From Candidatus Nitrospira nitrosa (GTDB taxonomy: Bacteria > Nitrospirota > Nitrospiria > Nitrospirales > Nitrospiraceae): 64,000 bases of DNA. The stretch is from the NCBI RefSeq assembly GCF_001458735.1, contig NZ_CZQA01000009.1, positions 434,001 through 498,000 on the forward strand, in the 5' to 3' direction. A program made the position numbers and the translations under genes. This document shows positions 12,118-31,615 of the stretch, piece after piece. Within the stretch, counting starts at the first letter, position 1, and each line of letters opens with the position of its first letter. The notes under the pieces are model-generated. The model was not told where the DNA came from and did not search any database. It worked only from the letters and a program-made list of their open reading frames with translations.

Positions 12118-12543
12118 TTACGGAGACAGGATCTCTCGCACTGCGGTCGAGGCAAAGAAGCCCTGCTCTCGGAGCGTGACGAACCAGGCCCGGGCAAACT
12201 CCTTCAAGTCCTGCTTCAGTGAGGACACGACGTGGGTACGCCTGCCCGTCTCGTCATACAGATACACTTCTTGCGAAAGCCCCAGGTAGTCGTTCCTGAA
12301 GGATACCGGTTCGGCTGCTGCGCCATCGGGTACATTGTGAAACAGAAATACGATGTCGGGATCTCGCATGAGGTCGCCGTTCTGTTCGCCGTAATGACAT
12401 AAGGACACCAGCCGGTATCCGCCTCCAGTGGTTCCAATATCCTCGACAGACAGCGGCAAATAGCCAGGCACAGTGATCCGTACCGCGCGTGCACCGTTGA
12501 GCAAGTGATTCAAGTCCGTGGCAAAGGCTTGATACAGTTTCAT
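12118..12543 (-). CDS. Small accessory protein (possibly DUF6908-type)
   Basis: This 141-aa soluble protein has no signal peptide. Residues about 48-65 (SLCHYGEQNGDLMRDPDIVF) form a motif I associate with a small protein family common on plasmids and integrated elements. I believe it is annotated DUF6908, but I am unsure of the number. The C-terminus is helical. It sits in the island together with the 80-aa protein downstream in coordinates, both on the minus strand. Function unknown. Confidence 0.65.
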   Translation of the reverse strand: MKLYQAFATDLNHLLNGARAVRITVPGYLPLSVEDIGTTGGGYRLVSLCHYGEQNGDLMRDPDIVFLFHNVPDGAAAEPVSFRNDYLGLSQEVYLYDETGRRTHVVSSLKQDLKEFARAWFVTLREQGFFASTAVREILSP

Positions 12544-13496: not shown

Positions 13497-13874
13497 ATGG
13501 CGCGTCAGGAACGGCCACTCGAATGGATTGGCAGTAGCTATAAAGATTTGATGGCGTTACCAGTTGCCGTTCGGCGATTCTTCGGGTACGCGTTGTCGCT
13601 GGCTCAGGCTGGCGATCAACATGATGATGCGAAGGTGCTCACGGGTTTCGGCAGCGCCGGTGTACTTGAAGTGGTCGAAGACGACAGGAGCGGCACCTAT
13701 CGAGCGGTGTATACCGTGAAGTTCAAGGAGGCGGTCTTCGTCCTGCATTGTTTTCAAAAAAAGAGTAAGCATGGCATCGCCACGCCGAAAGAGGATCTCG
13801 CCATCATACGTGCCAGGCTGAAAGTGGCTGAGGCGCTGGCCAAGGAGCGACGACATGAAAAAACGAGTCATTGA
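13497..13874 (+). CDS. Phage Gp49-like / HigB-type toxin
   Basis: This 125-aa basic protein opens RPLEWIGSSYKDLMALP and VAVRRFFGYALSLAQAG. It continues with YRAVYTVKF, AVFVLHCFQKKSKHG and TPKEDLAIIRARL. This is the PF05973 pattern of RelE-fold toxins. It is first in a two-gene operon and overlaps the antitoxin by 20 nt. The ATG at 13497 lies directly behind the -10 box, so no Shine-Dalgarno site is possible and translation must be leaderless or start elsewhere. Confidence 0.85.
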   Translation: MARQERPLEWIGSSYKDLMALPVAVRRFFGYALSLAQAGDQHDDAKVLTGFGSAGVLEVVEDDRSGTYRAVYTVKFKEAVFVLHCFQKKSKHGIATPKEDLAIIRARLKVAEALAKERRHEKTSH

Positions 13875-14190
13875 AGGGATCGAAGTCTCTCGTGGGTCTG
13901 GCAATGTCTTCGCAGATTTGGATCTGCCAGATGCCGAGACGCTTCAGATCAAGACCGGACTGGTAATCGAGATCCGGAGAGCCATTCGCCAACAAGGGCT
14001 GACCCAGCAAGCCGCGGCCACACGAATGGGGCTCACACAACCGAAGGTCTCCAGCATGATGCGCGGGGATTTCTCCAATGTATCCGAACGCAAACTGATG
14101 GAGTGCCTGAATCGGCTCGGCTACGATATTGAAATCAAAGTTCGACCAGCCTCTGCTCGCATTGGACACTTGATGCTGGCGCTGCCGTGA
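13855..14190 (+). CDS. HTH antitoxin (HigA-like, PF13744 type)
   Basis: This 111-aa protein has a C-terminal helix-turn-helix: LTQQAAATRMGLTQPKVSSM at about residues 44-63, then MRGDFSNVSERKLMECLNRLG. The pattern NVFADLDLPDAE near the N-terminus is usual for antitoxins paired with Gp49-like toxins. It should neutralise the upstream toxin and repress the operon through the palindrome at 13469-13490. The start overlaps the end of the toxin gene. Confidence 0.85.
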   Translation: MKKRVIEGIEVSRGSGNVFADLDLPDAETLQIKTGLVIEIRRAIRQQGLTQQAAATRMGLTQPKVSSMMRGDFSNVSERKLMECLNRLGYDIEIKVRPASARIGHLMLALP

Positions 14191-16524: not shown

Positions 16525-17283
16525 ATGAAGATGAATATACCTGGAATCCTTGGACTATGCATTGCTTTGTGTCTTGCATTTACTTTTGCATGTGTACGAG
16601 TTGAGGTCTCTGTAACATCCCCGAATACCTCCACCCAAAAGCCATCCCCAGATAGCTCCTGGATTTCCTTAGCTGACCTCAAAGAGATCCATAAGAAGCG
16701 TCTCTCAGGCAATAAATGTCCACCCAGTCGTTATCGATTGACGGATAGAGAAAAACAAGAAACAGAGGCCTGGTGCTGGGCTGCTTCAACCAGGCTGGTA
16801 ATGGCCTTTCATAACAAGGAGCAGAGCAAGGAAACAGACCTCCAATGCAACATCGTTACAAAAACTCTTGCCCTATTACAAGACAAATCCAAATGCTGCG
16901 CTGGTAACATCCCCGACCAGTGCGTTCAAGGCGGCTGGCCCCACTGGGTCTTCCGCTCCTATCATTTTGATTACAAGACGGTTGGTGGCACGCTGGACGA
17001 CTGGGATGCGGTAGTCGGGGAAATTTGTTCCACCGGCCCATTTATTTCTGTTATCGATTGGATTGGAGGAGGCTCACACACTCTTGTTGTCACAGGCTAT
17101 GGCGAAGACGAGAAGGATGCCACGAAGGTTGTCACAACCTATGACCCATTCACAGATGATTTTCAGGATCTCTCCCTTGAGGAGTTTGGGGGTGATTCAG
17201 CATATGAATCGGATGGCTTCTACGGATTTTCTCACAACCGACATTATGTGCAGATCACGCCAAAACCTGAGGATCGTCCATGA
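16525..17283 (+). CDS. Papain-fold (C39-like) cysteine peptidase, lipoprotein-like
   Basis: The ATG at 16525 is preferred because it opens a signal, GILGLCIALCLAFTFAC, with a plausible lipobox cysteine. An in-frame start 63 nt upstream would bury it. The mature domain has the nucleophile box EAWCWAAS, the histidine box GGGSHTLVVTGYG and a downstream YDPFTDDF, the Cys-His-Asp order of papain-like C39-type peptidases, plus several extra cysteines. It is first in a plus-strand run that leads into the TpsA/TpsB genes, and its stop overlaps the next start. It could process the secreted TpsA or its partner proteins. That role is inferred. Confidence 0.72.
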   Translation: MKMNIPGILGLCIALCLAFTFACVRVEVSVTSPNTSTQKPSPDSSWISLADLKEIHKKRLSGNKCPPSRYRLTDREKQETEAWCWAASTRLVMAFHNKEQSKETDLQCNIVTKTLALLQDKSKCCAGNIPDQCVQGGWPHWVFRSYHFDYKTVGGTLDDWDAVVGEICSTGPFISVIDWIGGGSHTLVVTGYGEDEKDATKVVTTYDPFTDDFQDLSLEEFGGDSAYESDGFYGFSHNRHYVQITPKPEDRP

Positions 17284-18041
17284 AAACGCACCACTTTCTT
17301 TGCTTCATAGTTTGCATTTCGGTGATGCATCCATCCCAAGCTCTTCCAATAGTCAATAAAACTCCGGAGACGGCAGCACAAGAAAACCCTCAGCACGATC
17401 AGTCCGTGTATCCGTTAGCACCAGAGGATGCTGCAGCTAACGGCCTAAAGAGCCTTTTGAAACGCCTAGAACCAAAGACGATCCCAGACTTTGATCAAGA
17501 ACGAGAGAAGCACGCACAAGAACTCGGATTCACAACAGGAACAGCAGGTGCCAAACTGCGCCAAGACGCATTCCCAATTTATGAGGTGCGCCTGGAAGAC
17601 ATACAGAACTTTACTCCGAACAAAGACGCCAAAAAATTATTAGTCAGAACTCCCCAACTACTTTTTCCAATCGAAGTCCAAAATGAGGTGAGATCCTCAA
17701 TTACCGTGCGATCTACCATCAATCAACCGAGAGGGATTGAGCAGACGGCAGACCAGGAAACACGTTGGCGCCCTACCCGGTGGGGACTTCCTAAACTTAT
17801 AGCTCGACTCACAACCGAACGAAAGCGGCTAGACGACAAAATCTCCAGACTGAAAGGCTTTCGGCTTGTCTCGATTCCAGCACTCAATCGTAACTTTCTA
17901 GGCTATGAAGACAATGCCGACCTGAAATTAGTTCCGCTAGTTTCTGACCACCTGTTCACGGCAGGAAAACCGTTGTCTACCAGAGAAGTTTTTTTGAGTC
18001 TTATCCCTGAGGCTAAAAGTGTGGACGGTAGTCCACGCTAA
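17280..18041 (+). CDS. Exported protein of unknown function in the secretion operon
   Basis: This 253-aa product starts in an ATGA overlap with the peptidase gene. An N-terminal signal (HHFLCFIVCISVMHPSQA) suggests export to the periplasm or beyond. The mature part is charged, with no cysteines after the signal and no membrane segment. I recognise no domain. Being translationally coupled to the peptidase, it may be its substrate, inhibitor or chaperone. That is speculation from position. Confidence 0.65.
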   Translation: MKTHHFLCFIVCISVMHPSQALPIVNKTPETAAQENPQHDQSVYPLAPEDAAANGLKSLLKRLEPKTIPDFDQEREKHAQELGFTTGTAGAKLRQDAFPIYEVRLEDIQNFTPNKDAKKLLVRTPQLLFPIEVQNEVRSSITVRSTINQPRGIEQTADQETRWRPTRWGLPKLIARLTTERKRLDDKISRLKGFRLVSIPALNRNFLGYEDNADLKLVPLVSDHLFTAGKPLSTREVFLSLIPEAKSVDGSPR

Positions 18042-18094
18042 GACCTTGTTGCAGTAGGAGCAACTTGTTGGCACACATACCAAGGAGACGGGAC

Positions 18095-18325
18095 ATGAAA
18101 AGAGAGCGTAGATGGTTTCAGATCGGTTCTGGATTGGCACTATCGTTGGTGTGTCTCATGATCCTACCTGCATGTAAACCCTTAATAGAGGTGAAAGTCG
18201 ATGCTACGTGCGGGCCGGAGAGAGAAACCAATTCTCCACCCACGGGCCCCTCTCGGTCGCAGAGCTGTGACAAGAACCCGGACGGCAGCTGCATGAGTCG
18301 TCCCAAGAACTGCGTATGTAACTAA
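18095..18325 (+). CDS. Small cysteine-rich lipoprotein
   Basis: The ATG at 18095 follows AAGGAG at seven bases. The 76-aa product has a signal ALSLVCLMILPAC with lipobox LPAC. A short mature tail contains four more cysteines (TCGPE, SCDKN, SCMSR, NCVCN), so disulfides are likely. The stop TAA shares one base with the ATG of the TpsA gene (TAATG), indicating translational coupling. The ORF extension upstream to a TTG at 18065 is unlikely. Confidence 0.65.
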   Translation: MKRERRWFQIGSGLALSLVCLMILPACKPLIEVKVDATCGPERETNSPPTGPSRSQSCDKNPDGSCMSRPKNCVCN

Positions 18326-21300
18326 TGGTCGCCAAGGATCTGAATTGTCCGATGGGTTACATTACTCTTCAGACTGCTACTAGGACAAGAAATCTTGTCG
18401 TGATACTCATCTTAGGATTTCTAGGACCACTCGCCGAAGCACCATTCACTCTCGCTCAAATAACCACGGCCATAACACCGACCACGGGTGAAGGAAATCT
18501 CGGCACCGTGGCCACTCCACAGAATACCCATACAATTCAAATCACTGGAGGAACAAGATCTGATCAAGGTGGCGGGACAAATCTCTTCCATAGCTTTAAA
18601 CAATTTAGCGTGGGGCATGGCGATACGGCGCTGTTTCTGAACACGACGCCAGCACTTCCCACCAACAACATTCTGAGTCAGGTCACTGGTGGAAGTCCTT
18701 CAAATATCTTTGGCACCATCGATACTATGAGTTATCCGAAAGCAACTCTCTTTTTGATGAATCCAGCCGGAATTGTCTTTGGGCCTAATGCTGTTTTAAA
18801 TGTAGGGGGCTCCGTAGCCTTTACAACTGCGAACTACATGCGACTCGCAGAAGCCGATGGGTCGAATGCTGGAATCTTCCATGCAAACTCAACAACCTCA
18901 CATATTTTGACGAGTGCCCCAGTCGTGGCCTTCGGATTTCTAACTGCCAATCCAGCAGCCATCGCAGTTCAAGGAAGTACGTTGACCGTTCAGGCTGGCC
19001 AAGCAATTTCCCTTATTGGGGGAGATATGACCATTGAGTCCGGCAAGCTTCCAAACAATCCTGCTCTAGATCCTCTCCTTCCCTCAGCACCGGGGAAGCA
19101 AGTGTATATAGCTAGCGTGGCTTCTCCTGGTGAGATTTTGGCCAGAACACTTACCCCTGCTGTAAATATCGCCAAGCAGTCTTTTGAGGCACTAGGAACA
19201 GTGACAATCTTGAAACAGTCAATAATCGATACCAGCGGCCGTGACGGCACAATTCACATTCGAGGAGGTCGTCTGGTCATTGATGATTCGATGCTCTTCA
19301 CACATACCGGCAATATCTCACTTGATGCCACTTCCCTACAGATCACGAACAACGGTCAAGTCTTAACGGAAACGTTAACAAGGGATCACGCCGGTCATAT
19401 TACTATAAATGCACAAGGAGATATCAATATAGACTCTAGTGAAAACGTAGGTTCCTTCTCATCACACTCATCCGGGCGTGCTGGCAACGTTACAATTAGT
19501 AGCAATCAAGGAAATATAACTCTTACCAAATCCACTGTATTCCAGGATGTTAATGGTAGTGGGGATACGGGCAACATCACATTTCATGCACCGCATGGAG
19601 ATATTAGTCTTACTAACTCCAGCATAGCGAGTCGAGCGAGTGGTACTGGCACACTTGGAGATATTCAGATCCAAGCATATAATCTGCACCTTCGAGAGGG
19701 ATCTAAAATTGGGGGTGATAATACCGGAACAAGCACACAGGCCCCTGGGAATATTTCAATCGCCTTGGATGGTCAACTCAGCCTTGCTAGTGGTTCTTTC
19801 ATCAACACAGAAGCATTTACATCTGCCACCGCAGCAGACTTAATCATCAAATCTCCAGCCGTTTTTATTGCTGGTAAAGACAGTTCCAGCAAAGTCCACA
19901 GCGGTCTCTACACTGATACCATCAGTACCGGCAATGGAGGTCACTTGCGTGTCTTTACAGACAATCTACAACTTATGGACGGCGGAATACTTTCGAGCAA
20001 GAGCTTTGTCGGTTCCAAGAGAGAAATTCCATCAGGCCATGGTGGAGTTGTCAATGTCGAGGGTTACCGAAATCCAGGTACTTTGATAACTATCAATGGA
20101 TCGGGAAGCGGCATCTTTACCAGTACTGAAGGGACCGGCACCGCAGGTGATATTGTCATGAAAGGTGCCTCAGTCACCCTCCAGAATGAGGGCAAAATAT
20201 CGGCAGAAACAACCGGCATCAGTTCGAAAGCATCTGGCGGCTCCATCACCGTAACCGCGACAGATCATGTGACACTGACTAACAACGCCTTAATCACAGC
20301 CAGCACCAGTGGTCCAGGCAATGCCGGCAACATATTAGTGAAGACGAATGACATCAGCATCAGTGGAGGTTCAACTATTACAGCCTCTTCAACTGGTTCA
20401 GGCAACGCAGGAACCGTCACGGTTCAAGGCTTGCAGGGTCCCGCAAGTTCATTCTTGATCGATGGCAGTAACAGCGGCGTTTTTACAAAAACCACCAATG
20501 CGGGTACCGGCGGCAACCTGTCAGTCTCTTCTAACTCAATAGTAATACAAAACAAGGGCAGCATCTCAGGAGAGACCTCCGGTACTGGATCCGGTGGCAA
20601 CATTGCACTCACTGCTGGTCAATCCGTCACCATTCAGAACGGCGCTTCAATCACCGCTCGTAGCACGGGACCAGCCGACGCAGGCAGTATCTCAATCAAT
20701 GCAGGCCAGCAACTCGATGTCATAGGGACAGGCACAAGTAGGAGCTCAATCACAACAGAATCCAACCAGGCCCAAGGTGGGGACATAAATATTCAAGCCA
20801 TAGACCGCGTGCGAGTCGTGGACAGCGAGATCAGCACCTCCGTGCTCGGAGGCGCGGGCAGTGGAGGCAACATCACCATCGACCCGAAGGTTGTCCTGCT
20901 TCAGAATAGCGACATTCTCGCACAGGCGAATCGCGGCACGGGCGGAGACATCTCAATCACCACACCAGTCTTCATCGCGGATCAATCAAGCCGCGTCGAT
21001 GCATCGACACCATTCGGGCTCAATGGACGGGTAACGATTCAATCCCCCACATCGAATCTGAGCGGGACCGTCGGTCAGCTCGTGTCGAAGACGAGTCCAC
21101 CTCAAGTCCTGTTGCAAAATCGCTGTGTGGCCTTAGCCGGGGGAGAACAGAGCACATTTCTTCTTGCCGGACGAGATGCGCTTCCAGGCGAACCCATCGG
21201 ATGGCTCAGCAGCCCGGTTTCTATGGAGCATTGGACCGGAGAGGACACAGCGCATGCCTCCCGACTCATGGCACGGAATCAGAATATTGATTCTTCACTA

Positions 21301-21411
21301 GTCATAGCCGCACACTCGAACAAGTCTCGAGTACTCTCACTACGACGGCTGACCCCGCCTGGATTCCTAGTTCGAACATTTGCGACCGGGGCCACGGGCT
21401 GTCCCTCATGA
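18325..21411 (+). CDS. Filamentous haemagglutinin-type TpsA exoprotein
   Basis: The 1028-aa protein has a signal peptide ending near residue 45 (LAEAPFTLAQ) and a two-partner-secretion N-domain. NNILSQVTGGSPSNIFG sits at about 114-130, and NPAGIVFGPNA at 146-156 is the equivalent of the NPNGI box. From about residue 300 to 920 it is a Gly/Ser/Thr/Asn-rich right-handed beta-helix with recurring GNAGNI/GSGGNI turns. The C-terminus ends with a conserved tail (LLQNRCVALAGGEQSTF) containing one cysteine. It should be secreted through the TpsB pore encoded next and stay at the surface as an adhesin. The gene overlaps TpsB by 4 nt. Confidence 0.9.
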   Translation: MVAKDLNCPMGYITLQTATRTRNLVVILILGFLGPLAEAPFTLAQITTAITPTTGEGNLGTVATPQNTHTIQITGGTRSDQGGGTNLFHSFKQFSVGHGDTALFLNTTPALPTNNILSQVTGGSPSNIFGTIDTMSYPKATLFLMNPAGIVFGPNAVLNVGGSVAFTTANYMRLAEADGSNAGIFHANSTTSHILTSAPVVAFGFLTANPAAIAVQGSTLTVQAGQAISLIGGDMTIESGKLPNNPALDPLLPSAPGKQVYIASVASPGEILARTLTPAVNIAKQSFEALGTVTILKQSIIDTSGRDGTIHIRGGRLVIDDSMLFTHTGNISLDATSLQITNNGQVLTETLTRDHAGHITINAQGDINIDSSENVGSFSSHSSGRAGNVTISSNQGNITLTKSTVFQDVNGSGDTGNITFHAPHGDISLTNSSIASRASGTGTLGDIQIQAYNLHLREGSKIGGDNTGTSTQAPGNISIALDGQLSLASGSFINTEAFTSATAADLIIKSPAVFIAGKDSSSKVHSGLYTDTISTGNGGHLRVFTDNLQLMDGGILSSKSFVGSKREIPSGHGGVVNVEGYRNPGTLITINGSGSGIFTSTEGTGTAGDIVMKGASVTLQNEGKISAETTGISSKASGGSITVTATDHVTLTNNALITASTSGPGNAGNILVKTNDISISGGSTITASSTGSGNAGTVTVQGLQGPASSFLIDGSNSGVFTKTTNAGTGGNLSVSSNSIVIQNKGSISGETSGTGSGGNIALTAGQSVTIQNGASITARSTGPADAGSISINAGQQLDVIGTGTSRSSITTESNQAQGGDINIQAIDRVRVVDSEISTSVLGGAGSGGNITIDPKVVLLQNSDILAQANRGTGGDISITTPVFIADQSSRVDASTPFGLNGRVTIQSPTSNLSGTVGQLVSKTSPPQVLLQNRCVALAGGEQSTFLLAGRDALPGEPIGWLSSPVSMEHWTGEDTAHASRLMARNQNIDSSLVIAAHSNKSRVLSLRRLTPPGFLVRTFATGATGCPS

Positions 21412-23213
21412 GGATCAGCGCAGTCGGTTCGGTGCGCCACAACCGACGTCGTCATCACATCTCCGTCTTACTGTCAGGGATTCTCTTGACGATGGTCCTG
21501 ACAACATCGACACCCCTATTGGCTCAAGTACTCCCTCCGGTCTTCGATCCGACACTCCGATCGGGAGAGCCTTCCGGCCCACTCAAGAAGAAATTCATCC
21601 CGCCCTCAATTCCTCCGCCGAGCCCGGTCCTTCCATCAGTGCCGACTACTCCGCCGGACGGCGAGACACAGACTCAACTCGGCCAGATCCAAGTTTTGGT
21701 CAAATCCATCCAGGTAACAGGCAATACCGTCTTTTCAGATGCGGAGATTGAAACCGTCACGAAACCCTACTACAACCAGGTCCTCAGCACTGAGGACCTG
21801 GAACGACTGCGACTGGCACTCACGCTCCTCTATGTGAACAAAGGCTATATCACCTCCGGCGCCGTCATTCCCGATCAAGACGTCGTCGATGGCGTGATTC
21901 AGATCCAGATCATTGAGGGTGCCCTGTCCCGGATCGACATCGAAGGAAATAACTGGTTCAGACCGAGAACACTCAGCGATCGCCTGGCACTCGGAGCCGG
22001 TCCGCCGCTCCAGATGGAACCGCTTCAAACACGACTGCAATTACTCCAGCAAGACCCCCGAATCGAACGGATCAATGCAGAACTCCGTCCGGGCGACCGA
22101 CGCGGCGAAAGCATTCTCCACGTCAACGTGAAGGAACAAAGTCCCTGGAAGATGTGGGCGGAATTCAGCAACTATCAGACACCCGCAGTCGGAGCCGAGC
22201 GCGGCTTGCTGACGGTCGCCCATCAAAATGTGACCGGACATGGTGATCCGTTAAGCATCACCTACGGCGGTTCACGAGGAGTCCACCCGGTTATCGATGT
22301 ATCGTACACGATTCCGATCAATCGCTACGATACAACCTTCACGGCGTCCTACCGTCGGAACGACTTTGTGGTCGTTGAGAGCCAGTTCCGCACACTGAAC
22401 CTCAACTCCACATCGGAAATTATCGGATTCACGCTCCGCCATCCAATTTATCGCACCCTCACCGATGAACTGGCCGTCGCCATTACCGGCGAACGGCTCT
22501 ATAACAAAGTGACGTCGATCTTCGATGAACCTGGCTTGCCCTCGTCGTTCATCAATGGCTCATCGGACACCGGAGTCAGCGCCGTGAGTGCCCTCCGCTT
22601 TGTGCAGGAATATGTGCATCGTACCTCGACGTCGGTGATCGCCGCTCGCTCCCGCTTCTCAGTGGGCCTGGACGTGTTGAATGCCACTACCAATTCCGGT
22701 GTCTCAGACCGTGGGCTTCCCCTACCCGACGGACGCTTCTTTTCCTGGCTGGGACAACTCCAGGGGATCAGGCGATTCGACGACTGGTGGGGCATGCAGC
22801 TCCTGGGACAGCTCAACCTGCAACTGGCTAATGATCGGCTCTTTCCATTGGAACAAATTCCTCTCGGCGGACGATTCAGCGTCCGCGGCTATCGTGAAAA
22901 TACGCTGATTCGCGACAATGGCTTTCACTTTTCAATTGAATCTCGATTTCCGTTGCTCCGGTATGCCAGTGGTGAGCCTCTCTTGCAGTTCGCGCAATTC
23001 GTCGATGTCGGTCGGACCTGGCAGGCCAAGGGAAAAACCGAGGATCCGCAAACTTTGGCCAGTGTGGGGTTGGGGCTCCGCTGGACGGTGTTACCGAAAG
23101 ACCGGGCACGGTTTGAACTCTATTGGGGTGTGCCGCTCAATCATGTCCCGCATCCCGCCGGCAACCTTCAGGATCATGGCATCCACCTTCAGGCGGTCGT
23201 CCAAGTCTTTTGA
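21408..23213 (+). CDS. TpsB outer-membrane transporter (ShlB/FhaC/HecB family)
   Basis: The 601-aa protein starts in an ATGA overlap with TpsA. The order is a signal peptide (ending near STPLLAQ), a proline-rich linker, and a POTRA domain (VKSIQVTGNTVFSDAEIETV, then LTLLYVNKGYITSGAVIPDQ). A second POTRA-like region (IDIEGNNWFRPRTL) is followed by a beta-barrel. VRGY at 492-495 is the L6 motif of the Omp85/TpsB superfamily, and the protein ends in a C-terminal aromatic (VVQVF). It exports the upstream TpsA across the outer membrane. Confidence 0.92.
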   Translation: MRISAVGSVRHNRRRHHISVLLSGILLTMVLTTSTPLLAQVLPPVFDPTLRSGEPSGPLKKKFIPPSIPPPSPVLPSVPTTPPDGETQTQLGQIQVLVKSIQVTGNTVFSDAEIETVTKPYYNQVLSTEDLERLRLALTLLYVNKGYITSGAVIPDQDVVDGVIQIQIIEGALSRIDIEGNNWFRPRTLSDRLALGAGPPLQMEPLQTRLQLLQQDPRIERINAELRPGDRRGESILHVNVKEQSPWKMWAEFSNYQTPAVGAERGLLTVAHQNVTGHGDPLSITYGGSRGVHPVIDVSYTIPINRYDTTFTASYRRNDFVVVESQFRTLNLNSTSEIIGFTLRHPIYRTLTDELAVAITGERLYNKVTSIFDEPGLPSSFINGSSDTGVSAVSALRFVQEYVHRTSTSVIAARSRFSVGLDVLNATTNSGVSDRGLPLPDGRFFSWLGQLQGIRRFDDWWGMQLLGQLNLQLANDRLFPLEQIPLGGRFSVRGYRENTLIRDNGFHFSIESRFPLLRYASGEPLLQFAQFVDVGRTWQAKGKTEDPQTLASVGLGLRWTVLPKDRARFELYWGVPLNHVPHPAGNLQDHGIHLQAVVQVF

Positions 23214-23224
23214 CAAGAGGCTCC

Positions 23225-25558
23225 ATGTTGACACCCATGCAATCGTTTCTTCCTTCCATTCGACATGCCATGTGTTGCTTGTTCTTGATGGCGATTCCAT
23301 TGCTCACTGCGACGCAATCAGAATCCCATGAGGTGTCCTCCCCTGCTGGCTCATCGATGAAAGAAGGCGCCCGGGAATTTGAACGAGGCGCTTTTGGTAC
23401 CGCCTTGTCTCATTGGAAACGGGCAGCAGAACTCTACAAAAGTTCCGGCAATACCCCGGCACAGGTCGAGGCCCTGATTCTCTCATCCCAGGCTTCCTTG
23501 GGATTAGGACAATCCAAACAGGCTCTTCAGTCTCTGGAACTTGCATTGGGGCTGGCACAGAAGAGCGGTGACCCCCTTGTGGAAGCCCCCATCCTCGGAC
23601 ACTTGGGACGGACCTACTTAACGATGCGGCAATTACCTCAGGCATCCGAATTTCTCCTGCAAGCGGCAGCCCTCGGGCGCAAGCAGAATTCTTCGCCGCT
23701 CCTTGCGGCCACATTGAACGATCTCGGCATCCTCCTGGTCCTCCAGCAGCAGGATCAGAACGCTCTCGATACCTTTCAGGAGAGCGTGACCCATGCACAG
23801 AGCGTCGGGCTTCCTCTCCTCGCGGCAACCGCCCGCACGAACGCCGCGCGGGCATGGTTGCGACTGAAGCAGGCGACCAATAGCCGCCTAACCCTCGACG
23901 CCGCACTAGAACAATTACAAGAGGTAACGCCGCCATCCAGACAAACCGCCCTCGGCCTGATCGGAGTCGCGGTGACCTACCAGAGATTGCTGCCTCATCT
24001 CCCCAAAGAACATGATGCGCTCTTGTTGCGCACGGCTGGCGCACTCCAGGAATCCTCCACCATCGCAGAGCGCCTGGGCGACAAACGGACGCTCTCCTAT
24101 GCCCTGGGGTACCTTGGGCAGCTGTATGAAACCTCATTTCGTCTGGATGAAGCGCTACAACTCACCAGGCGAGCGGTATTCGCCGCGCAATCGGTGGATG
24201 CGCCGGAGTCACTCTATCGCTGGCAATGGCAACTTGGCCGTCAGCTGGCGACGATCGGACAACTTGACCAGGCGATCGCCTCATACCGGCAGGCGACACT
24301 GACGCTCCAACCGATTCGCGCGGAGCTGACACAGGCTTCTTCCGATGGTGTCGTTGGTGAGCAGGATACCGTGAAACCTCTGTTTTTTGAGCTGGCCGAC
24401 TTATTGTTGCAACGTGCCTCGTTGACCGACGACATCACCGCTGTTGATGTCGACCTACGCGCCGCTCGGGACGCAATTGAAGCCTACAAGACCGCGGAGC
24501 TGCGGGACTATTTCAAGGATGAGTGTGTCGATGCCGTTCGTTCGCGATTGACGACCTTCGATCGCATATCAGCGGATACGGCCGTCGTCTATCCGATCAT
24601 GTTCAATTCCCGCCTGGAATTGCTCATGAGCCTACCCTCGGGCTTGAAACGCATCTCGGTCCCGGTATCTGCAGACCAATTGACTCAAGAAATTCGTGCC
24701 TTTCGTCGACTGGTGGAAAAGCGTACCACGCGTGAATATCTGCCGCATGCTCAACAGCTCTATGACTGGCTGATCCGGCCCCTCGAGACCGACCTATCGC
24801 AACTGAACATCTCGACGCTGGTCATCGTCCCGGACAGCGCCCTGCGGACGATTCCGTTAGCGGCACTGCACGATGGAACCTCATTCCTGGTCAGCAAATT
24901 TGCACTCGCGATGACACCTGGTCTGACATTAACCGATCCACGCCCACTCAATCGAGACAAACTCCGCTTTCTCACCGCCGGCCTTACCACTGCGGTACAA
25001 GGCTTCCCTGCTCTACCCTATGTGGCGAACGAAGTTGAGTCCATTCAACAGCTTTACAAGAGCGACCAACTCCTGAACAACGCCTTTCAAACATCCAGAC
25101 TGGAACGGGAATTGCGTGAAGGAAAGTATGGAGGTCTCCATATTGCGACCCACGGCAAGTTCTCGACCGACGTGAACGATTCATATCTTTTGACCTTTGA
25201 CGGGAAACTGACCATGCAGACACTCGATCAACTAATCGGCCTCTTTCGGTTCAGACAAGAGCCGCTTGAATTGTTGACCCTTAGTGCCTGCCAAACCGGT
25301 ATCGGCGATGACCGTGCGGCGCTCGGGTTGGCCGGCGTGGCGCTGAAGGCCGGGGCTCGCAGTGCACTTGCCACACTGTGGTTCATCAACGATGAGGCCT
25401 CAGCAACCCTGATCTCTGAATTTTATCGACAACTGCGCGATCCCGCTCTCTCCAAAGCCGTCGCGCTCCAGCGTGCCCAACAGAAACTCTTGGACGACAG
25501 GATCTATGGCCATCCGGCTTATTGGTCGCCGTTTTTATTGATGAATAACTGGCTCTAA
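23225..25558 (+). CDS. TPR-CHAT domain protease, exported
   Basis: The ATG at 23225, 11 nt after the tpsB stop, opens a signal (MCCLFLMAIPLLTATQS). A longer upstream frame overlaps tpsB and is unlikely. The 777-aa product has TPR-type helices to about residue 400. A C-terminal CHAT domain follows, with the caspase-like dyad intact: HIATHG (His643) and SACQTGIGDDRAALGLAG (Cys689). CHAT proteins are caspase-family peptidases or scaffolds. The gene sits directly behind TpsA/TpsB, an association also known from cyanobacteria. It may process the exoprotein or respond to it. Confidence 0.88.
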   Translation: MLTPMQSFLPSIRHAMCCLFLMAIPLLTATQSESHEVSSPAGSSMKEGAREFERGAFGTALSHWKRAAELYKSSGNTPAQVEALILSSQASLGLGQSKQALQSLELALGLAQKSGDPLVEAPILGHLGRTYLTMRQLPQASEFLLQAAALGRKQNSSPLLAATLNDLGILLVLQQQDQNALDTFQESVTHAQSVGLPLLAATARTNAARAWLRLKQATNSRLTLDAALEQLQEVTPPSRQTALGLIGVAVTYQRLLPHLPKEHDALLLRTAGALQESSTIAERLGDKRTLSYALGYLGQLYETSFRLDEALQLTRRAVFAAQSVDAPESLYRWQWQLGRQLATIGQLDQAIASYRQATLTLQPIRAELTQASSDGVVGEQDTVKPLFFELADLLLQRASLTDDITAVDVDLRAARDAIEAYKTAELRDYFKDECVDAVRSRLTTFDRISADTAVVYPIMFNSRLELLMSLPSGLKRISVPVSADQLTQEIRAFRRLVEKRTTREYLPHAQQLYDWLIRPLETDLSQLNISTLVIVPDSALRTIPLAALHDGTSFLVSKFALAMTPGLTLTDPRPLNRDKLRFLTAGLTTAVQGFPALPYVANEVESIQQLYKSDQLLNNAFQTSRLERELREGKYGGLHIATHGKFSTDVNDSYLLTFDGKLTMQTLDQLIGLFRFRQEPLELLTLSACQTGIGDDRAALGLAGVALKAGARSALATLWFINDEASATLISEFYRQLRDPALSKAVALQRAQQKLLDDRIYGHPAYWSPFLLMNNWL

Positions 25559-25622
25559 TTGAGGATTGTGCGCAATCACTCGACGCGCACTATCGATCGA
25601 TTGAAGCTGGGAAGGAGCTGTC

Positions 25623-26378
25623 ATGAAACTCCGCTGCCCCTCTACGCTCGTTGGAATTGGCCTGTCCCTGAGCCTGATCAGCTCGGCCACAGGAGTGACA
25701 GCTGCGGACCATCCGCCAATGCCAATAACAGGGCCACAAGAAAACCTGCAGCTGCCGATCTATGCCCCACCGAAAAATGTCCTCCCCCGCGCCCGAGTGG
25801 GTGGCGCGCTGCGCGGAAAGGACACGGCTGATGCAGAAATCGTGGCGCTGGTACCAGACCATATCGGTCTGACGGTGAAACAAACCCCAACTCTGAATTG
25901 GTTTCTGTCGAAACCAACCTCCTATCCGTTGAAATTCACTATTACGGATGATAGAAAAGTCCGCCCTATCTACGAAGGCCCTCTTTCAACGCCACCGGCG
26001 GCCGGTGTGCACACCATCGACCTCAAGACCTTAGGCTTGACACTGGAACCGAATGTTCAATACCGCTGGTTTGTGTCGGCCAGCCCAGATTCCGCATCAC
26101 ACGCCTCGGATATCGTCGCCGGGGGGATGATCGAACGATGTGAATTCAGCGAATGCATTGTGACCATCTCGCCCAAGATGACCTGTGACCAGGATAGCGT
26201 TCGTACGAATGCCACAATCGGACTCTGGTATGATGCGATGGGCTGTGTATGCTCACTGATCGAGAAGAACCCAACGGACCCTGCACTTCGACGACTCCGT
26301 GCTGCGCTTTTGAGACAAGTCGGCCTCAACGGCGTAGCCGATTGGGACCTCAGCTCTATTCAAACAAAGGCAAGATGA
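25623..26378 (+). CDS. DUF928 exported protein, last gene of the secretion operon
   Basis: The 251-aa product has a signal peptide (GIGLSLSLISSATGVTAA) and the DUF928 pattern. PRARVGGALRG and LVPDHIGLTVKQTPTLNWFL are followed by VQYRWFVSASPD, then a C-terminal helical part (GLWYDAMGCVCSLIEKNP). DUF928 proteins occur in cyanobacteria beside CHAT and TPS genes, with no proven function. The 64-nt gap after the CHAT gene and the shared strand suggest the same operon. Start at an ATG preceded by GGAAGGAGCTGTC, a good Shine-Dalgarno site. Confidence 0.82.
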   Translation: MKLRCPSTLVGIGLSLSLISSATGVTAADHPPMPITGPQENLQLPIYAPPKNVLPRARVGGALRGKDTADAEIVALVPDHIGLTVKQTPTLNWFLSKPTSYPLKFTITDDRKVRPIYEGPLSTPPAAGVHTIDLKTLGLTLEPNVQYRWFVSASPDSASHASDIVAGGMIERCEFSECIVTISPKMTCDQDSVRTNATIGLWYDAMGCVCSLIEKNPTDPALRRLRAALLRQVGLNGVADWDLSSIQTKAR

Positions 26379-26432: not shown

Positions 26433-26801
26433 GCATGAATCTATTATGATACACCACGTAGCGACTTACCCATCATCACAATCCAGGCAACCAATCAAAA
26501 ATTTGCATGAATATCTGTGCTTCAGTGCCAATCATTTTCTCCTGAACCGACGGCATAACGATTGCTCTACTTCCACACAAGGGGTAATCCCCGCTGCAGC
26601 ACCAGGCAACGCCGATGAGACAACCAGCAATTGCCTTCAACAGAAGGAGCTCCCCCACGTTGAGAATGATCCGTCGGACAGACTGCAGCACCCTGAACTG
26701 TCATGAGCAGTGGACTTAACGTGATCAGTTTTCATGAGTCCAGGTAATTACTTGATCCGTTGTCTACCGCACGCGCTAAGATCCACCGTGGTCACGCCAC
26801 C

Positions 26802-27770
26802 ATGACGCGTACGGCCGGCCTACACCGAACAGAACTCCCGTTCCCTATCCGATTTGGACTGCGGATGGCGCTCGTGTTTGCGGCTCTACTCTGGCTACCT
26901 CAGACAGATCTTGAGGCTGCCGGTCTCGAGATCACCATTCTGAAGTCATCTGACCTCAAGGGGTATAACGATGCAATTGATGGGTTCAAGGCCACGTCAC
27001 CAGGATCCGCCATATTTGCTGAGTACGATCTTCTTGGCGACCTGGAGCGAGGCAAGCAGCTGGCAAAGCGAATCCGTACGTCGGAGTCCTCGCTAGTCGT
27101 GGCCGTTGGATTGAAGGCCGCCTTGGCGGCCAAGCTTGAAATCGATCATATTCCGATTCTCTACATGATGATTCTCGACCCGTTCAAACATCACCTCACT
27201 GCCGGCAATATGACGGGTGTGTTGCTGGAAATTCCATCCGATCGCCAGTTGAAGATTATGCGCTCGTTCTTACCGACCCTGCATCGCATCGGCATGCTCT
27301 ATGACCCCGAGAAAACCTTGCCAAAACTGAAAGAGGCCGAGATGCGGGCACCTGCCCAAGACTTTCAGATCCGCGGGTTTCCCGTCACACAGGAAAAAGA
27401 CATCCCCCATCAGCTGCGCACCCTCTTGTCCGAATCCGAGGCCCTATGGCTCGTTCCCGACCCAACAGTGCTGACGGACGAATCTATCCGCTTTATCCTG
27501 GAATCCGCAGTCGCCAAACAAGTTCCTGTTATCGCTTTTTCTACTGAGTTTACACGTCTGGGAGCCCTACTCAGCTTGTCGGTGGACTACAGCGAAGTCG
27601 GCCGCGAGACCGGTCGTTTGGCAAAACGCATTCTGAACGGCGAACCGATGATGACGCTCAAACCTGTGTCGGTCCAGCGAATCCATATCACCGTGAATCA
27701 GAAAACAGCTCGCTACCTAGGCATCACGATCCCAAAAGAGGTTGAGCCTCTCATCGACGAAACCTATTGA
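26802..27770 (+). CDS. Exported ABC-type substrate-binding protein (PF04392), copy 1
   Basis: The ATG at 26802 opens a 322-aa product with an N-terminal signal (LRMALVFAALLWLPQTDLEAA). LEITILKSSDLKGYNDAIDG opens the ABC_sub_bind fold, with VAVGLKAALAAKLEI, TGVLLEIP and LHRIGMLYDPEK further on. No permease or ATPase gene lies nearby. Instead a histidine kinase starts 10 nt downstream, followed by a sigma54 activator. I infer that this protein presents a ligand to the kinase rather than feeding a transporter. A second copy lies at 39267. Confidence 0.85.
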   Translation: MTRTAGLHRTELPFPIRFGLRMALVFAALLWLPQTDLEAAGLEITILKSSDLKGYNDAIDGFKATSPGSAIFAEYDLLGDLERGKQLAKRIRTSESSLVVAVGLKAALAAKLEIDHIPILYMMILDPFKHHLTAGNMTGVLLEIPSDRQLKIMRSFLPTLHRIGMLYDPEKTLPKLKEAEMRAPAQDFQIRGFPVTQEKDIPHQLRTLLSESEALWLVPDPTVLTDESIRFILESAVAKQVPVIAFSTEFTRLGALLSLSVDYSEVGRETGRLAKRILNGEPMMTLKPVSVQRIHITVNQKTARYLGITIPKEVEPLIDETY

Positions 27771-27780
27771 GCGACCCGTC

Positions 27781-30144
27781 ATGTACCCTTCTCACCAGGA
27801 CCAGCCCGAAGCTTCTCCACCAGGGCCACGCCGCGCGTTCGGCCTGCGCATTAAGTTCGTATTATTATTCAGCCTGATCCTCATCATCACCTGCTCGACT
27901 TTAAGCTGGTATTTTCTTGAAACCAGGCACCAGGCGATGACCACAAGCTTAGAAGAAATGGGGACCATTCTTCTCACCGCTACCATACGTAATGATCATT
28001 TCCGAGTGGCTGGGATCGTCTTAGAGGACCGCAGCACCCTCGATCAATTCCTCCAGAGTCTGATGACCATCGACCACGTGGTGTATGTCATCATCACGGG
28101 ATCTGACGGTCGTCTACTCAGTAGACAAAGTAAACGCTCGCAGGATCCCGCTCGCAACTTATCGCGTGCCTCGCCTTCACCGATCTACCCGGACGACAGA
28201 CTGTCTGAATCGTTGACTGATATCCCGTTGACGACTCCGTTGATCACGCGCTTCGTGTGGTCGTCAGACCAGAAGAGATTGATTCCTCAACAGACATCCT
28301 CGGACTGGTTCCTCCCCTTCCTGATTCGGGAAGAAACGCTCTTTGATTTCACCATGCCGATCTTGCGAGATGTCACTCCCTTATCCTCACCATCTATCGA
28401 GCTTGAGGACAGACGGAGGGCTCCATCACCCGCCACACAATCCTCGGTGGTGGGCATTGTCCGTATTGGGATCACGGATGGCCAAGCGAAGGCGGCATTG
28501 GCGCTCATTGTGCGCAACGTCCTCATCCTGACCATCTTCATCATTGCAACCGGCATCCTCATCATCTATTTGCTGACCTCCCGCATCACGACCCCGCTGC
28601 GCAGCCTTGCAGCAGCCACTCGTAAACTTGCTGAAGGTGAGGACACTACAGGCTTGCCTGTCTCCTCACACCATGATGAAGTCGGACAGCTCACCCATGC
28701 ATTCAACTTGATGACGCAATCCTTGCGTGACCGTAACCAGGCAATTACCAGGAATATCGACACCATACGACAGCAAGTCCGGCAATTGACCGCCGTCCAT
28801 CAGGCCAGCACCGCCATTGCAAGCACCAGTGTCATGGATATGGAGCGGCTGATTGAGACGGTGCTCCAGCTCCTTTCGGAAAATCTCGGATTTTCAAAGA
28901 TGGCGGTTCTCCTCTACCACCCGGAGACAAATTGCTGCTCCGTTGCCCAAGTCTTCGGAGCTTCCCCTGCAATTGCTAACGCTGCGCGTCAAGTGCATAT
29001 CCCTGTCTATGAAGGAAGCATCACCGCCGATCTCCTCTTTGACCACAAGCCATTCCTGATTCAGGACATAGAAACTATGGCTCCACGTTTCTATCCGCCG
29101 CTCCTTGATCTGTTACGGCGTTCCGGCACAAAATCGGTTGTCATCGTACCGCTTCAGAGTCAAGCCAAGATTCTCGGTTTTCTAGCAGGAGGTCGTGATA
29201 CTCATCAATGTGATGAAGAAGATCTCCACATCTTATTGACTATCGCTGGCCATGTCGCAGCAGCCATTGACAATGCCACGGCTTACGCTAACCTGGCCGA
29301 GCTGACTCAGCATCTGGAAGAACGCATTGGACAGCGCACCGAGGAACTCTCTCAGGCCAATATCCAACTTCAGGAGCATGATCGGCGTCGATCGAAGTTT
29401 CTGTCTGTCGTTTCCCATGAGCTACGGACACCCATGACCGCAATTCGGAGTTTTGCAGAGAACATGCTGGACGGTGTCACCGGTCCGTTGACTGACCTCC
29501 AGCGAACCTATCTCACGCGGGTTCAGCACAATGTGGCACGACTTAGCAGAATCATCGCCCAGTTGCTCGACTGGTCACGTCTGGACACCAAACGAGTCGA
29601 TTTGCGCTTGGAAACCGTCTGTCTCCATCACATCGCCACGATAGCCGTAGACAGCTTGCAGACGGTGGCTTCTGAAAAGAATGTCTCGTTGGTGGTTGTC
29701 CCCATCGGATCCCTACCGCCGGTTCTGGGGGATCGCGACAAACTGGAACAAATCTTCGTGAATCTGATCGGCAACGCCATCAAGTTTACTCCGCCCGGTG
29801 GTCATGTATGCGTTGAACCTTGTGCCTCATCACCAGGCGTCGTTCAGGTGTGTGTAGCTGATACCGGTTGCGGCATCGATGAGAGGCACCTCCCGAATAT
29901 CTTTGAAGAGTTCTCCAAGGTGCCGTCGGCGATGCCCTCATCACAAGGTGCTCAACTTGGACTTTGGATCACCAAGACCTATGTGACGATGCACCATGGC
30001 CGGATCTGGGTCGAGAGTCAGCCTGGGGCAGGGTCTCAATTCTACATTGCCCTTCCGGCATGCGAGTCACAGGAGCAGGCGAAATCGAACCCAAATGAGT
30101 CCGTGTCAGCTGAATGTCCTCAGCCTGGGCACAGGTCTTTCTAG
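27781..30144 (+). CDS. Membrane sensor histidine kinase (HAMP-GAF-HisKA-HATPase)
   Basis: The ATG at 27781 gives 787 aa. Transmembrane segments at about 24-46 and 243-266 enclose a periplasmic sensor of roughly 195 residues. HAMP (about 267-320), GAF (about 350-500) and a coiled coil lead to HisKA with FLSVVSHELRTP (His546). An HATPase follows with NLIGNAIKFTPPGG, DTGCGI and a variant G2 box, GAQLGLWITK. Ten bases separate it from the substrate-binding protein and 16 from the response regulator, so the three form one operon and probably one signalling path. Confidence 0.9.
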   Translation: MYPSHQDQPEASPPGPRRAFGLRIKFVLLFSLILIITCSTLSWYFLETRHQAMTTSLEEMGTILLTATIRNDHFRVAGIVLEDRSTLDQFLQSLMTIDHVVYVIITGSDGRLLSRQSKRSQDPARNLSRASPSPIYPDDRLSESLTDIPLTTPLITRFVWSSDQKRLIPQQTSSDWFLPFLIREETLFDFTMPILRDVTPLSSPSIELEDRRRAPSPATQSSVVGIVRIGITDGQAKAALALIVRNVLILTIFIIATGILIIYLLTSRITTPLRSLAAATRKLAEGEDTTGLPVSSHHDEVGQLTHAFNLMTQSLRDRNQAITRNIDTIRQQVRQLTAVHQASTAIASTSVMDMERLIETVLQLLSENLGFSKMAVLLYHPETNCCSVAQVFGASPAIANAARQVHIPVYEGSITADLLFDHKPFLIQDIETMAPRFYPPLLDLLRRSGTKSVVIVPLQSQAKILGFLAGGRDTHQCDEEDLHILLTIAGHVAAAIDNATAYANLAELTQHLEERIGQRTEELSQANIQLQEHDRRRSKFLSVVSHELRTPMTAIRSFAENMLDGVTGPLTDLQRTYLTRVQHNVARLSRIIAQLLDWSRLDTKRVDLRLETVCLHHIATIAVDSLQTVASEKNVSLVVVPIGSLPPVLGDRDKLEQIFVNLIGNAIKFTPPGGHVCVEPCASSPGVVQVCVADTGCGIDERHLPNIFEEFSKVPSAMPSSQGAQLGLWITKTYVTMHHGRIWVESQPGAGSQFYIALPACESQEQAKSNPNESVSAECPQPGHRSF

Positions 30145-30160
30145 AAAGGAGTCTCCACTG

Positions 30161-31615
30161 ATGCGTGCGAAAATCCTCATTGTCGATGACGATCACGATA
30201 TCCTCCTTAGCCTGGAAAATCGCGTCACATGGATGGGTCATGAACCGGTGACGGCGACGAATGGGCAGGAGGCGCTCCGATTGATCCAAGAGGAACAGCC
30301 TGACCTTGTCTTGTTGGATTTGGAGCTTCCATTACTATCGGGGCTTGACGTCTTGAAACATGTCAGCCAAACATCCGTACGTACCGACTCTCCGGATGAG
30401 GAGGCCCATCCAATATCAGCAACCTATACGACTCCACTCATCGTGATGCTGACCGCGTACGGAACGATTGAACGCGCCGTGCAAGCCATGCAGTTGGGTG
30501 CATTTGATTTCGTCCCCAAGCCATTCACCTCTGACCACTTAACCGTCGTCATCAACAAAGCACTCGATACCGTGACACTTCACCGCCATGTCGCCACTCT
30601 CCGGAAGGAGGTTGAAAATCAGTTCCAGCCGGCAATCACCAACAATGCTCACATGGCTGCGCAGCTCGCTGTCGCCAAGCAGGCGGCCTCTTCACCCGTC
30701 ACAGTCCTATTACTCGGTGAAACGGGCACAGGGAAAGAGGTCGTCGCACGGGCGATCCATCGGTGGAGCCCGCGATCCAGCAAACCCTTCGTCGCAGTGA
30801 ATTGCGCGGCGTTCCCTGAAAACTTGTTGGAAAATGAGCTATTCGGCCACGAAAAGGGTGCTTTCACCGGAGCCATCAAACGAGAACCGGGGAAAATTGA
30901 AATCGCCGAGGGAGGCACCTTGTTTCTCGACGAAATCGGAGACATGCCACTCACCATGCAAAGCCACCTCCTCCGAGTGCTGAACGACCGAAGATTCTAC
31001 CGAGTCGGAGGCACGCAGGAAGTGCGGGCTGACGTGAGGTTCATCGCAGCAACCAACAAGAATCTCCAGCAGGCAATTCGCCAAGGCACATTCCGAGAGG
31101 ATTTGTATTTCCGTCTTGCGGTGATTTCCCTCAACTTACCCCCTCTACGCGATCGTCTAGATGATCTACCGGCGCTTGCCGACCATTTCCTCACACAACC
31201 TGGAAAACTTGGACTCAATCGGCGCTGTACGCTCAGCGACTCGGCCTTGGAGCTGTTGCACACGTATTCCTGGCCTGGAAACGTACGTGAACTCGAGAAC
31301 GTCCTCACCCGTGCCCTCGTCCTCTGTCCTGGTGACACAATCGGCCCGGAACATCTCTCCTTAATGACCCTACCACTCGAGACGGACGCTTCATCCTCGT
31401 TGAATCAGCAACCATCCTCCGACATCGTGTTCTTCTCTTATCACGAGAGTATGGACGCCTATAGCCAAACACTCATTGAAAATGCCCTCAGGAGAAATGG
31501 CTGGAATCAAACCAAAGCGGCAACAGAGTTAGGACTCCAGCGAACCTACTTGACCAAACTCCTCAGGCAGAAACAGATCCCCGCAAAACCACCCTCTTCA
31601 TTTTCGGCGGATTAG
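30161..31615 (+). CDS. NtrC-family sigma54 response regulator, copy 1
   Basis: The ATG at 30161 follows AAAGGAG. An earlier frame overlaps the kinase and is unlikely. The 484-aa product has a receiver domain with Asp53 (LLDLELP). A sigma54-interacting AAA+ domain has GETGTGKE at 186-193, the GAFTGA loop at 233-238 and a LFLDEIGDMP Walker B region. A Fis-type HTH (GWNQTKAATELGLQRTYLTK) ends the protein. It should activate sigma54 promoters when phosphorylated by the kinase encoded upstream. Its targets are not known. The TonB receptor genes are the obvious guess. Confidence 0.92.
   Translation: MRAKILIVDDDHDILLSLENRVTWMGHEPVTATNGQEALRLIQEEQPDLVLLDLELPLLSGLDVLKHVSQTSVRTDSPDEEAHPISATYTTPLIVMLTAYGTIERAVQAMQLGAFDFVPKPFTSDHLTVVINKALDTVTLHRHVATLRKEVENQFQPAITNNAHMAAQLAVAKQAASSPVTVLLLGETGTGKEVVARAIHRWSPRSSKPFVAVNCAAFPENLLENELFGHEKGAFTGAIKREPGKIEIAEGGTLFLDEIGDMPLTMQSHLLRVLNDRRFYRVGGTQEVRADVRFIAATNKNLQQAIRQGTFREDLYFRLAVISLNLPPLRDRLDDLPALADHFLTQPGKLGLNRRCTLSDSALELLHTYSWPGNVRELENVLTRALVLCPGDTIGPEHLSLMTLPLETDASSSLNQQPSSDIVFFSYHESMDAYSQTLIENALRRNGWNQTKAATELGLQRTYLTKLLRQKQIPAKPPSSFSAD

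Follow-up and report, generated by a model that had tools for sequence, protein, structure and literature searches.

The window analysed here, 64,000 nucleotides of the Candidatus Nitrospira nitrosa genome (contig NZ_CZQA01000009.1), carries seven plus-strand genes at positions 16525 to 26378, coordinates that were exact on rechecking. The first gene encodes a papain-like cysteine peptidase (pep; 16525 to 17283) that is a predicted lipoprotein. It is followed by genes for an exported partner protein of 253 residues (B; 17280 to 18041), a small Cys-rich lipoprotein of no family with a C-terminal CxC (C; 18095 to 18325), a TpsA exoprotein of 1,028 residues (18325 to 21411), a TpsB outer membrane pore (21408 to 23213), a TPR-CHAT caspase-like protein (23225 to 25558), and an exported DUF928 protein (25623 to 26378). 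Several of these genes overlap, as originally described: pep and B by 4 bp, C and TpsA by 1 bp, and TpsA and TpsB by 4 bp; the gaps from TpsB to CHAT and from CHAT to DUF928 are 11 and 64 bp. Such short or overlapping junctions fit a single transcript. Promoter and terminator scans of the locus gave scores no better than those of shuffles. A few kilobases upstream lies a Gp49-like (HigB-type) toxin gene paired with an HTH_37 antitoxin gene (13497 to 14190), preceded on the minus strand by a DUF6908 gene (12118 to 12543; E = 4e-36), with little other recognisable coding content from there to the operon. The locus falls into two halves, a conserved core, TpsA-TpsB-CHAT-DUF928, and an optional upstream cassette, pep-B-C.

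The core encodes a two-partner secretion (TPS; type Vb) system, in which TpsA has an N-terminal TPS secretion domain (PF05860, E = 2e-38) and the adjacent TpsB has a POTRA domain (POTRA_2, PF08479) and a ShlB barrel (PF03865). TpsB matches, many of them weak, were found in 58 of the 79 genomes of the genus Nitrospira, and TpsB-centred regions were extracted across the genus. CHAT and DUF928 follow TpsB on the same strand in 37 of the 38 closest loci (L048 to L085), the single exception being a sequence that stops at a contig end; both are part of the TPS core and lie outside the cassette. The CHAT domain (PF12770, E = 1.4e-56, plus TPRs) has the predicted fold and His-Cys dyad of a clan CD peptidase. 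The dyad had been reported as intact at His643 and Cys689, which is exact when residues are numbered from the ATG at 23225, and neither residue varies among the 49 homologues spanning this site. A signal-peptide-like N-terminal segment on this protein and its homologues suggests that CHAT is probably exported too. DUF928 was assigned to PF06051 (E = 1.5e-30). The original prediction also named TPS, CHAT, and DUF928 as known neighbours in cyanobacteria, and the annotation of plasmid ABRG53f of Pseudanabaena sp. ABRG5-3 bears this out, listing ShlB, CHASE2, filamentous-hemagglutinin, CHAT, and DUF928. The four core genes are thus neighbours in both groups and the arrangement is already known; the Pseudanabaena stretch differs in having no peptidase, B, or C, and in having TpsB before TpsA with CHASE2 between them. 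Literature searches combining CHAT or DUF928 with two-partner secretion returned nothing useful.

An ABC-type substrate-binding protein (26760 to 27770, plus strand; PF04392, E = 2e-33; start codon uncertain) is encoded downstream of DUF928 here and in most Nitrospira TPS loci. It is probably a unit separate from the operon; since it follows the operon and co-diverges with CHAT and DUF928 (r of 0.88 to 0.93, about 0.9), it could serve the locus as a regulatory module. The stretch from 26760 to 31615, directly downstream of the operon, also encodes a GAF/HAMP sensor kinase and a sigma-54 NtrC-type regulator. A more distant second TPS lineage of Nitrospira (L087 to L095) has a gene for a large Cys-containing exported protein before TpsA, and its DUF928 gene is on the opposite strand.

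The peptidase, the 253-residue protein, and the Cys-rich protein had been regarded as additions to the known arrangement, and they are indeed an added arrangement set on the conserved core. The cassette is present in 13 of the 38 Nitrospira TpsB loci that have upstream sequence, and its distribution requires at least 7 gains or losses on the TpsB tree; a tree was used because shared ancestry inflates counts, loci truncated by contig breaks were left out, and absence from a draft genome may reflect such a break. The peptidase itself occurs in 15 of the 79 genomes of the genus, and in cassette-free loci different exported genes fill the slot upstream of TpsA. We conclude that the Nitrospira TPS operon has gained or lost a three-gene exported cassette repeatedly.

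The order of the genes is kept in relatives; its loss there would have told against the original prediction. pep-B-C-TpsA recurs in 13 Nitrospira loci and in three genomes of two other genera (two from another genus of the same family and one from another family of the same order), which is more than would be expected by chance. All 16 of these TPS-linked pep loci, in three genera, have a small Cys-rich exported protein between B and TpsA; the C homologues mostly carry a lipobox and have a C-terminal CxC or CxCxC. No such protein was noticed beside pep-B pairs that lie away from TPS loci. Within Nitrospira, pep-B lies immediately before TpsA, always with C, in 13 of the 14 pairs for which downstream sequence is available, and one genome (G084) has pep-B without TPS. 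In L051, L053, L054, and L059, the cassette or TpsA itself is preceded by another TpsA-like gene, and further tandem TpsA loci are L176, L177, and L178. Short exported proteins with an HCHxSxxCxCPxGYTVHxH-like C terminus, possible metal or heme binders, are encoded upstream of TpsA genes in L052, L059, L060, L066, and L051 (1177 to 1347).

The description of pep as a lipoprotein-like protein of papain fold holds: it scores above the Pfam cut-off for both Peptidase_C39_2 (E = 7e-8) and Peptidase_C70 (E = 3e-6), and has the Cys, His, Asp/Asn, and oxyanion Gln of papain-like enzymes. The catalytic set Q78-C84-H185-D207 is invariant across 14 Nitrospira homologues, and the lipobox Cys23 is invariant in 22 homologues from several phyla. 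It is a single-domain lipoprotein in an operon with no exporter, and so does not belong with the Peptidase C39 of bacteriocin exporters. A search with its structural model (pLDDT 73) using Foldseek identified staphopains as best matches (E about 2e-4, best 1.7e-4; probability 1.00), followed by AvrPphB, AvrRpt2, and cathepsins; two of the three staphopain structures are complexes with staphostatin. Matches to designed SAKe proteins among the solved structures were discarded as repeat artefacts.

B had been noted as belonging to no recognised family, and no match to it was found in Pfam, in NCBIfam, or among PDB sequences. Its homologues are about 200 to 250 residues long and always exported or lipidated. 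The AF2 model (pLDDT 83) has an alpha/beta fold with no significant match among PDB structures; the first is pro-staphopain B (E = 0.087, TM 0.27), and no staphostatin is among the structure matches listed. Taken alone, this match of the model is no evidence, and a comparison of B with I69/SpeB-type pro-regions from Bacteroidota genomes gave no sequence-profile similarity. That the models of pep and B both point to one zymogen family is suggestive. Stand-alone B proteins end in a near-invariant, length-exact YNGLPx tail, which the model places after the last helix; in TPS-linked B proteins the tail is relaxed, and here it reads DGSPR.

In 15 of 15 Nitrospira pep loci the gene for B adjoins pep, directly downstream, one copy of B being truncated where its contig stops. 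When 84,980 species genomes were scanned with two peptidases, 34 pep loci were recovered, spread over Nitrospirota, Elusimicrobiota, Bacteroidota, Acidobacteriota, Gemmatimonadota, Verrucomicrobiota, and Pseudomonadota, with B directly downstream in 33 as an ordered and often overlapping pair; since the scan was seeded with a two-sequence alignment (the all-Nitrospira set has no conserved stretch) and finds mainly the L113/L100-like branch, this figure describes that branch. TpsA, TpsB, CHAT, and DUF928 were all absent from the retrieved stretches of these 34 loci. The 15 Nitrospira loci, together with a scan of the phylum Nitrospirota, are a partly separate sample; in the phylum scan, B was found in 16 of 296 genomes, and in one of them (G318) it lies beside a different papain-type peptidase. 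The peptidase and B therefore form a widespread pair of their own, which the original prediction overlooked.

A plasmid search with B found nothing. Actinobacterial plasmid peptidases are often followed by an exported protein of 260 to 300 residues, and comparison of the profile of this partner with B by hhalign gave P = 6e-4 and a probability of 28% (controls, 0.01 or worse), which is only suggestive of kinship. In L163, L164, L168, L169, and L170, all from actinobacterial plasmids, a papain-like peptidase is directly followed by an exported protein of 270 to 300 residues with a conserved DKLPGxxY motif near the C terminus. These plasmid pairs are possibly a distant version of pep-B.

Divergence within the locus was compared across 13 Nitrospira cassettes, on which the Mantel tests rest. 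Sequence identity averages 0.28 (pep) and 0.24 (B), compared with 0.71 (TpsB) and 0.70 (CHAT). Distances for pep and B are closely correlated (r = 0.87, Mantel p = 1e-4; 0.83 with TpsA removed), whereas those for pep and TpsB show no such relation (r = 0.15, p = 0.13). The co-variation of pep is stronger with the TpsA passenger than with TpsB or DUF928, and persists when TpsB is removed (partial r = 0.48, p = 8e-4). CHAT, DUF928, and the substrate-binding protein make up a second co-diverging block. With two such blocks, the locus looks mosaic, with a variable left part (pep, B, C, and TpsA) and a stable right part.

Gene order, conservation, patchiness, intact catalytic residues, and export or lipidation signals can be read directly from the sequence. 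In the reading that we favour, pep would be a papain-like endopeptidase of the envelope, anchored in the membrane, and B a dedicated exported regulator that binds it and either holds it inactive or aids its folding in the periplasm, much as staphostatin, Spi, or a detached pro-region does with the protease it belongs to. After release, the site of action of pep would be the cell surface, where TpsA, the Cys-rich C, and foreign surface proteins are candidate targets. A regulatory role for B is suggested by the ordered pairing, which holds in seven phyla without TPS as well as in Nitrospira; by the tight co-divergence of B with pep, set against the lack of correlation between pep and TpsB; by the G318 locus; by the staphopain matches of the pep model, with the nonsignificant pro-staphopain match of B; by the position of the YNGLPx tail, as expected of a docking tail; and by the precedent of Bacteroides, in which C10 proteases that are lipoproteins share a transcript with exported inhibitors resembling staphostatin (bfp/bfi; PMC2873492). 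Against it stand the nonsignificance of that structural match, the lack of profile similarity to I69/SpeB-type pro-regions, and the relaxed tail of TPS-linked B proteins, and the linkage would be explained equally well if B were a foldase, a receptor, or a substrate. The patchiness of the cassette argues for its having docked on the operon. Our confidence is evenly balanced on the reading as a whole, an optional pep-B-C cassette docked on a TPS operon, with pep as an envelope protease and B as its exported regulator.

The original prediction was that two cysteine peptidases around one adhesin point to staged processing or to a surface-triggered protease response. Staged processing is possible, but the comparison did not support it: most TPS-CHAT loci in Nitrospira have no peptidase, neither the length range of TpsA nor its C-terminal cap differs between loci that have the cassette and loci that lack it, and the pep-B pairs of other phyla have no TPS neighbour. 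The independence of TpsA length and cap from the cassette argues against an essential processing role for pep. The fixed pep-B-C-TpsA order, constant in 16 loci, and the correlation between pep and the TpsA passenger that remains once TpsB is accounted for argue for some tie between pep and TpsA, although plain co-transfer of neighbours may account for the latter. It is accordingly rather doubtful that pep is a surface lipoprotein that trims or releases the TpsA filament, restrained by B, with C as a co-substrate and CHAT making a second cut.

B might instead be a foldase or chaperone that matures pep rather than an inhibitor. The near-obligate pairing, the co-divergence, and the export signals on both proteins would fit such a role, as would the conserved cysteines of pep, which suggest disulfides; we consider it unlikely, as B has no similarity to known foldases and a foldase would be less likely to keep so exact a C-terminal tail. 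We find it similarly hard to credit that the slot upstream of TpsA is merely variable and the cassette functionally unconnected to TPS. Other exported genes do occupy the slot in pep-free loci, the presence of pep is scattered on the TpsB tree, and the pair in G084 has no TPS; against this, all but one of the Nitrospira pairs with downstream sequence lie exactly before TpsA with C, the same holds in two other genera, and pep co-varies with TpsA. It is quite improbable that the pair consists of a protease effector and an immunity protein, deployed against neighbours and landing on the TPS operon as a convenient site. Patchy and fast-diverging as this two-gene cassette is, and although polymorphic toxin systems are recognised to include papain-like peptidases among their toxin domains (PMC3482391), pep is a lipoprotein with no TPS or other delivery domain fused to it, B carries an export signal as pep does, orphan immunity arrays were not seen, and pep, B, and C had no match among the defence families of PADLOC.

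The docked-cassette reading extends to a broader claim, which we make tentatively and regard as less likely than not: that pep and B make up a hitherto undescribed envelope protease system of two genes, found in at least seven phyla, in which an exported partner of a new family controls the lipoprotein pep through its conserved C-terminal tail, and which Nitrospira and its relatives have co-opted on several occasions, together with a Cys-rich lipoprotein, as a switch at the surface for a TPS exoprotein. An isolated operon thereby becomes a testable general claim, that a peptidase of the sort labelled "C39 family" or "papain-like" has a dedicated exported partner, one missing from every family database searched here. 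If B is an inhibitor, this would predict the means by which many papain-like proteases in the envelopes of soil and water bacteria are rendered harmless, and the key nitrifier Nitrospira would have a surface-protein system under regulation.

Pep shares Pfam families and the Cys-His-Asp set with AvrRpt2-type C70 peptidases and Peptidase_C39_2 proteins; unlike them, it is a secreted lipoprotein with a near-obligate partner gene, at a locus with no type III or ABC transporter context. As with LapG and LapA, or SphB1 and FHA, a putative envelope protease is linked here to a large surface adhesin, its candidate substrate. Those two proteases are of other kinds: LapG, from family C93, works in the periplasm and is controlled by c-di-GMP, and SphB1 is an autotransporter of the subtilisin type. 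The closest parallels are bfp/bfi of Bacteroides (PMC2873492), staphopain-staphostatin, and SpeB-Spi, in each of which, as here, a papain-like protease has its partner gene adjacent; in Bacteroides this encodes a small, specific inhibitor, and the protease is also predicted to be lipid anchored. Those proteases belong to C10 or C47, whereas pep belongs with C39_2/C70. B differs too, being about 200 to 250 residues long, always exported or lipidated, and unlike the pro-regions of those proteases in sequence.
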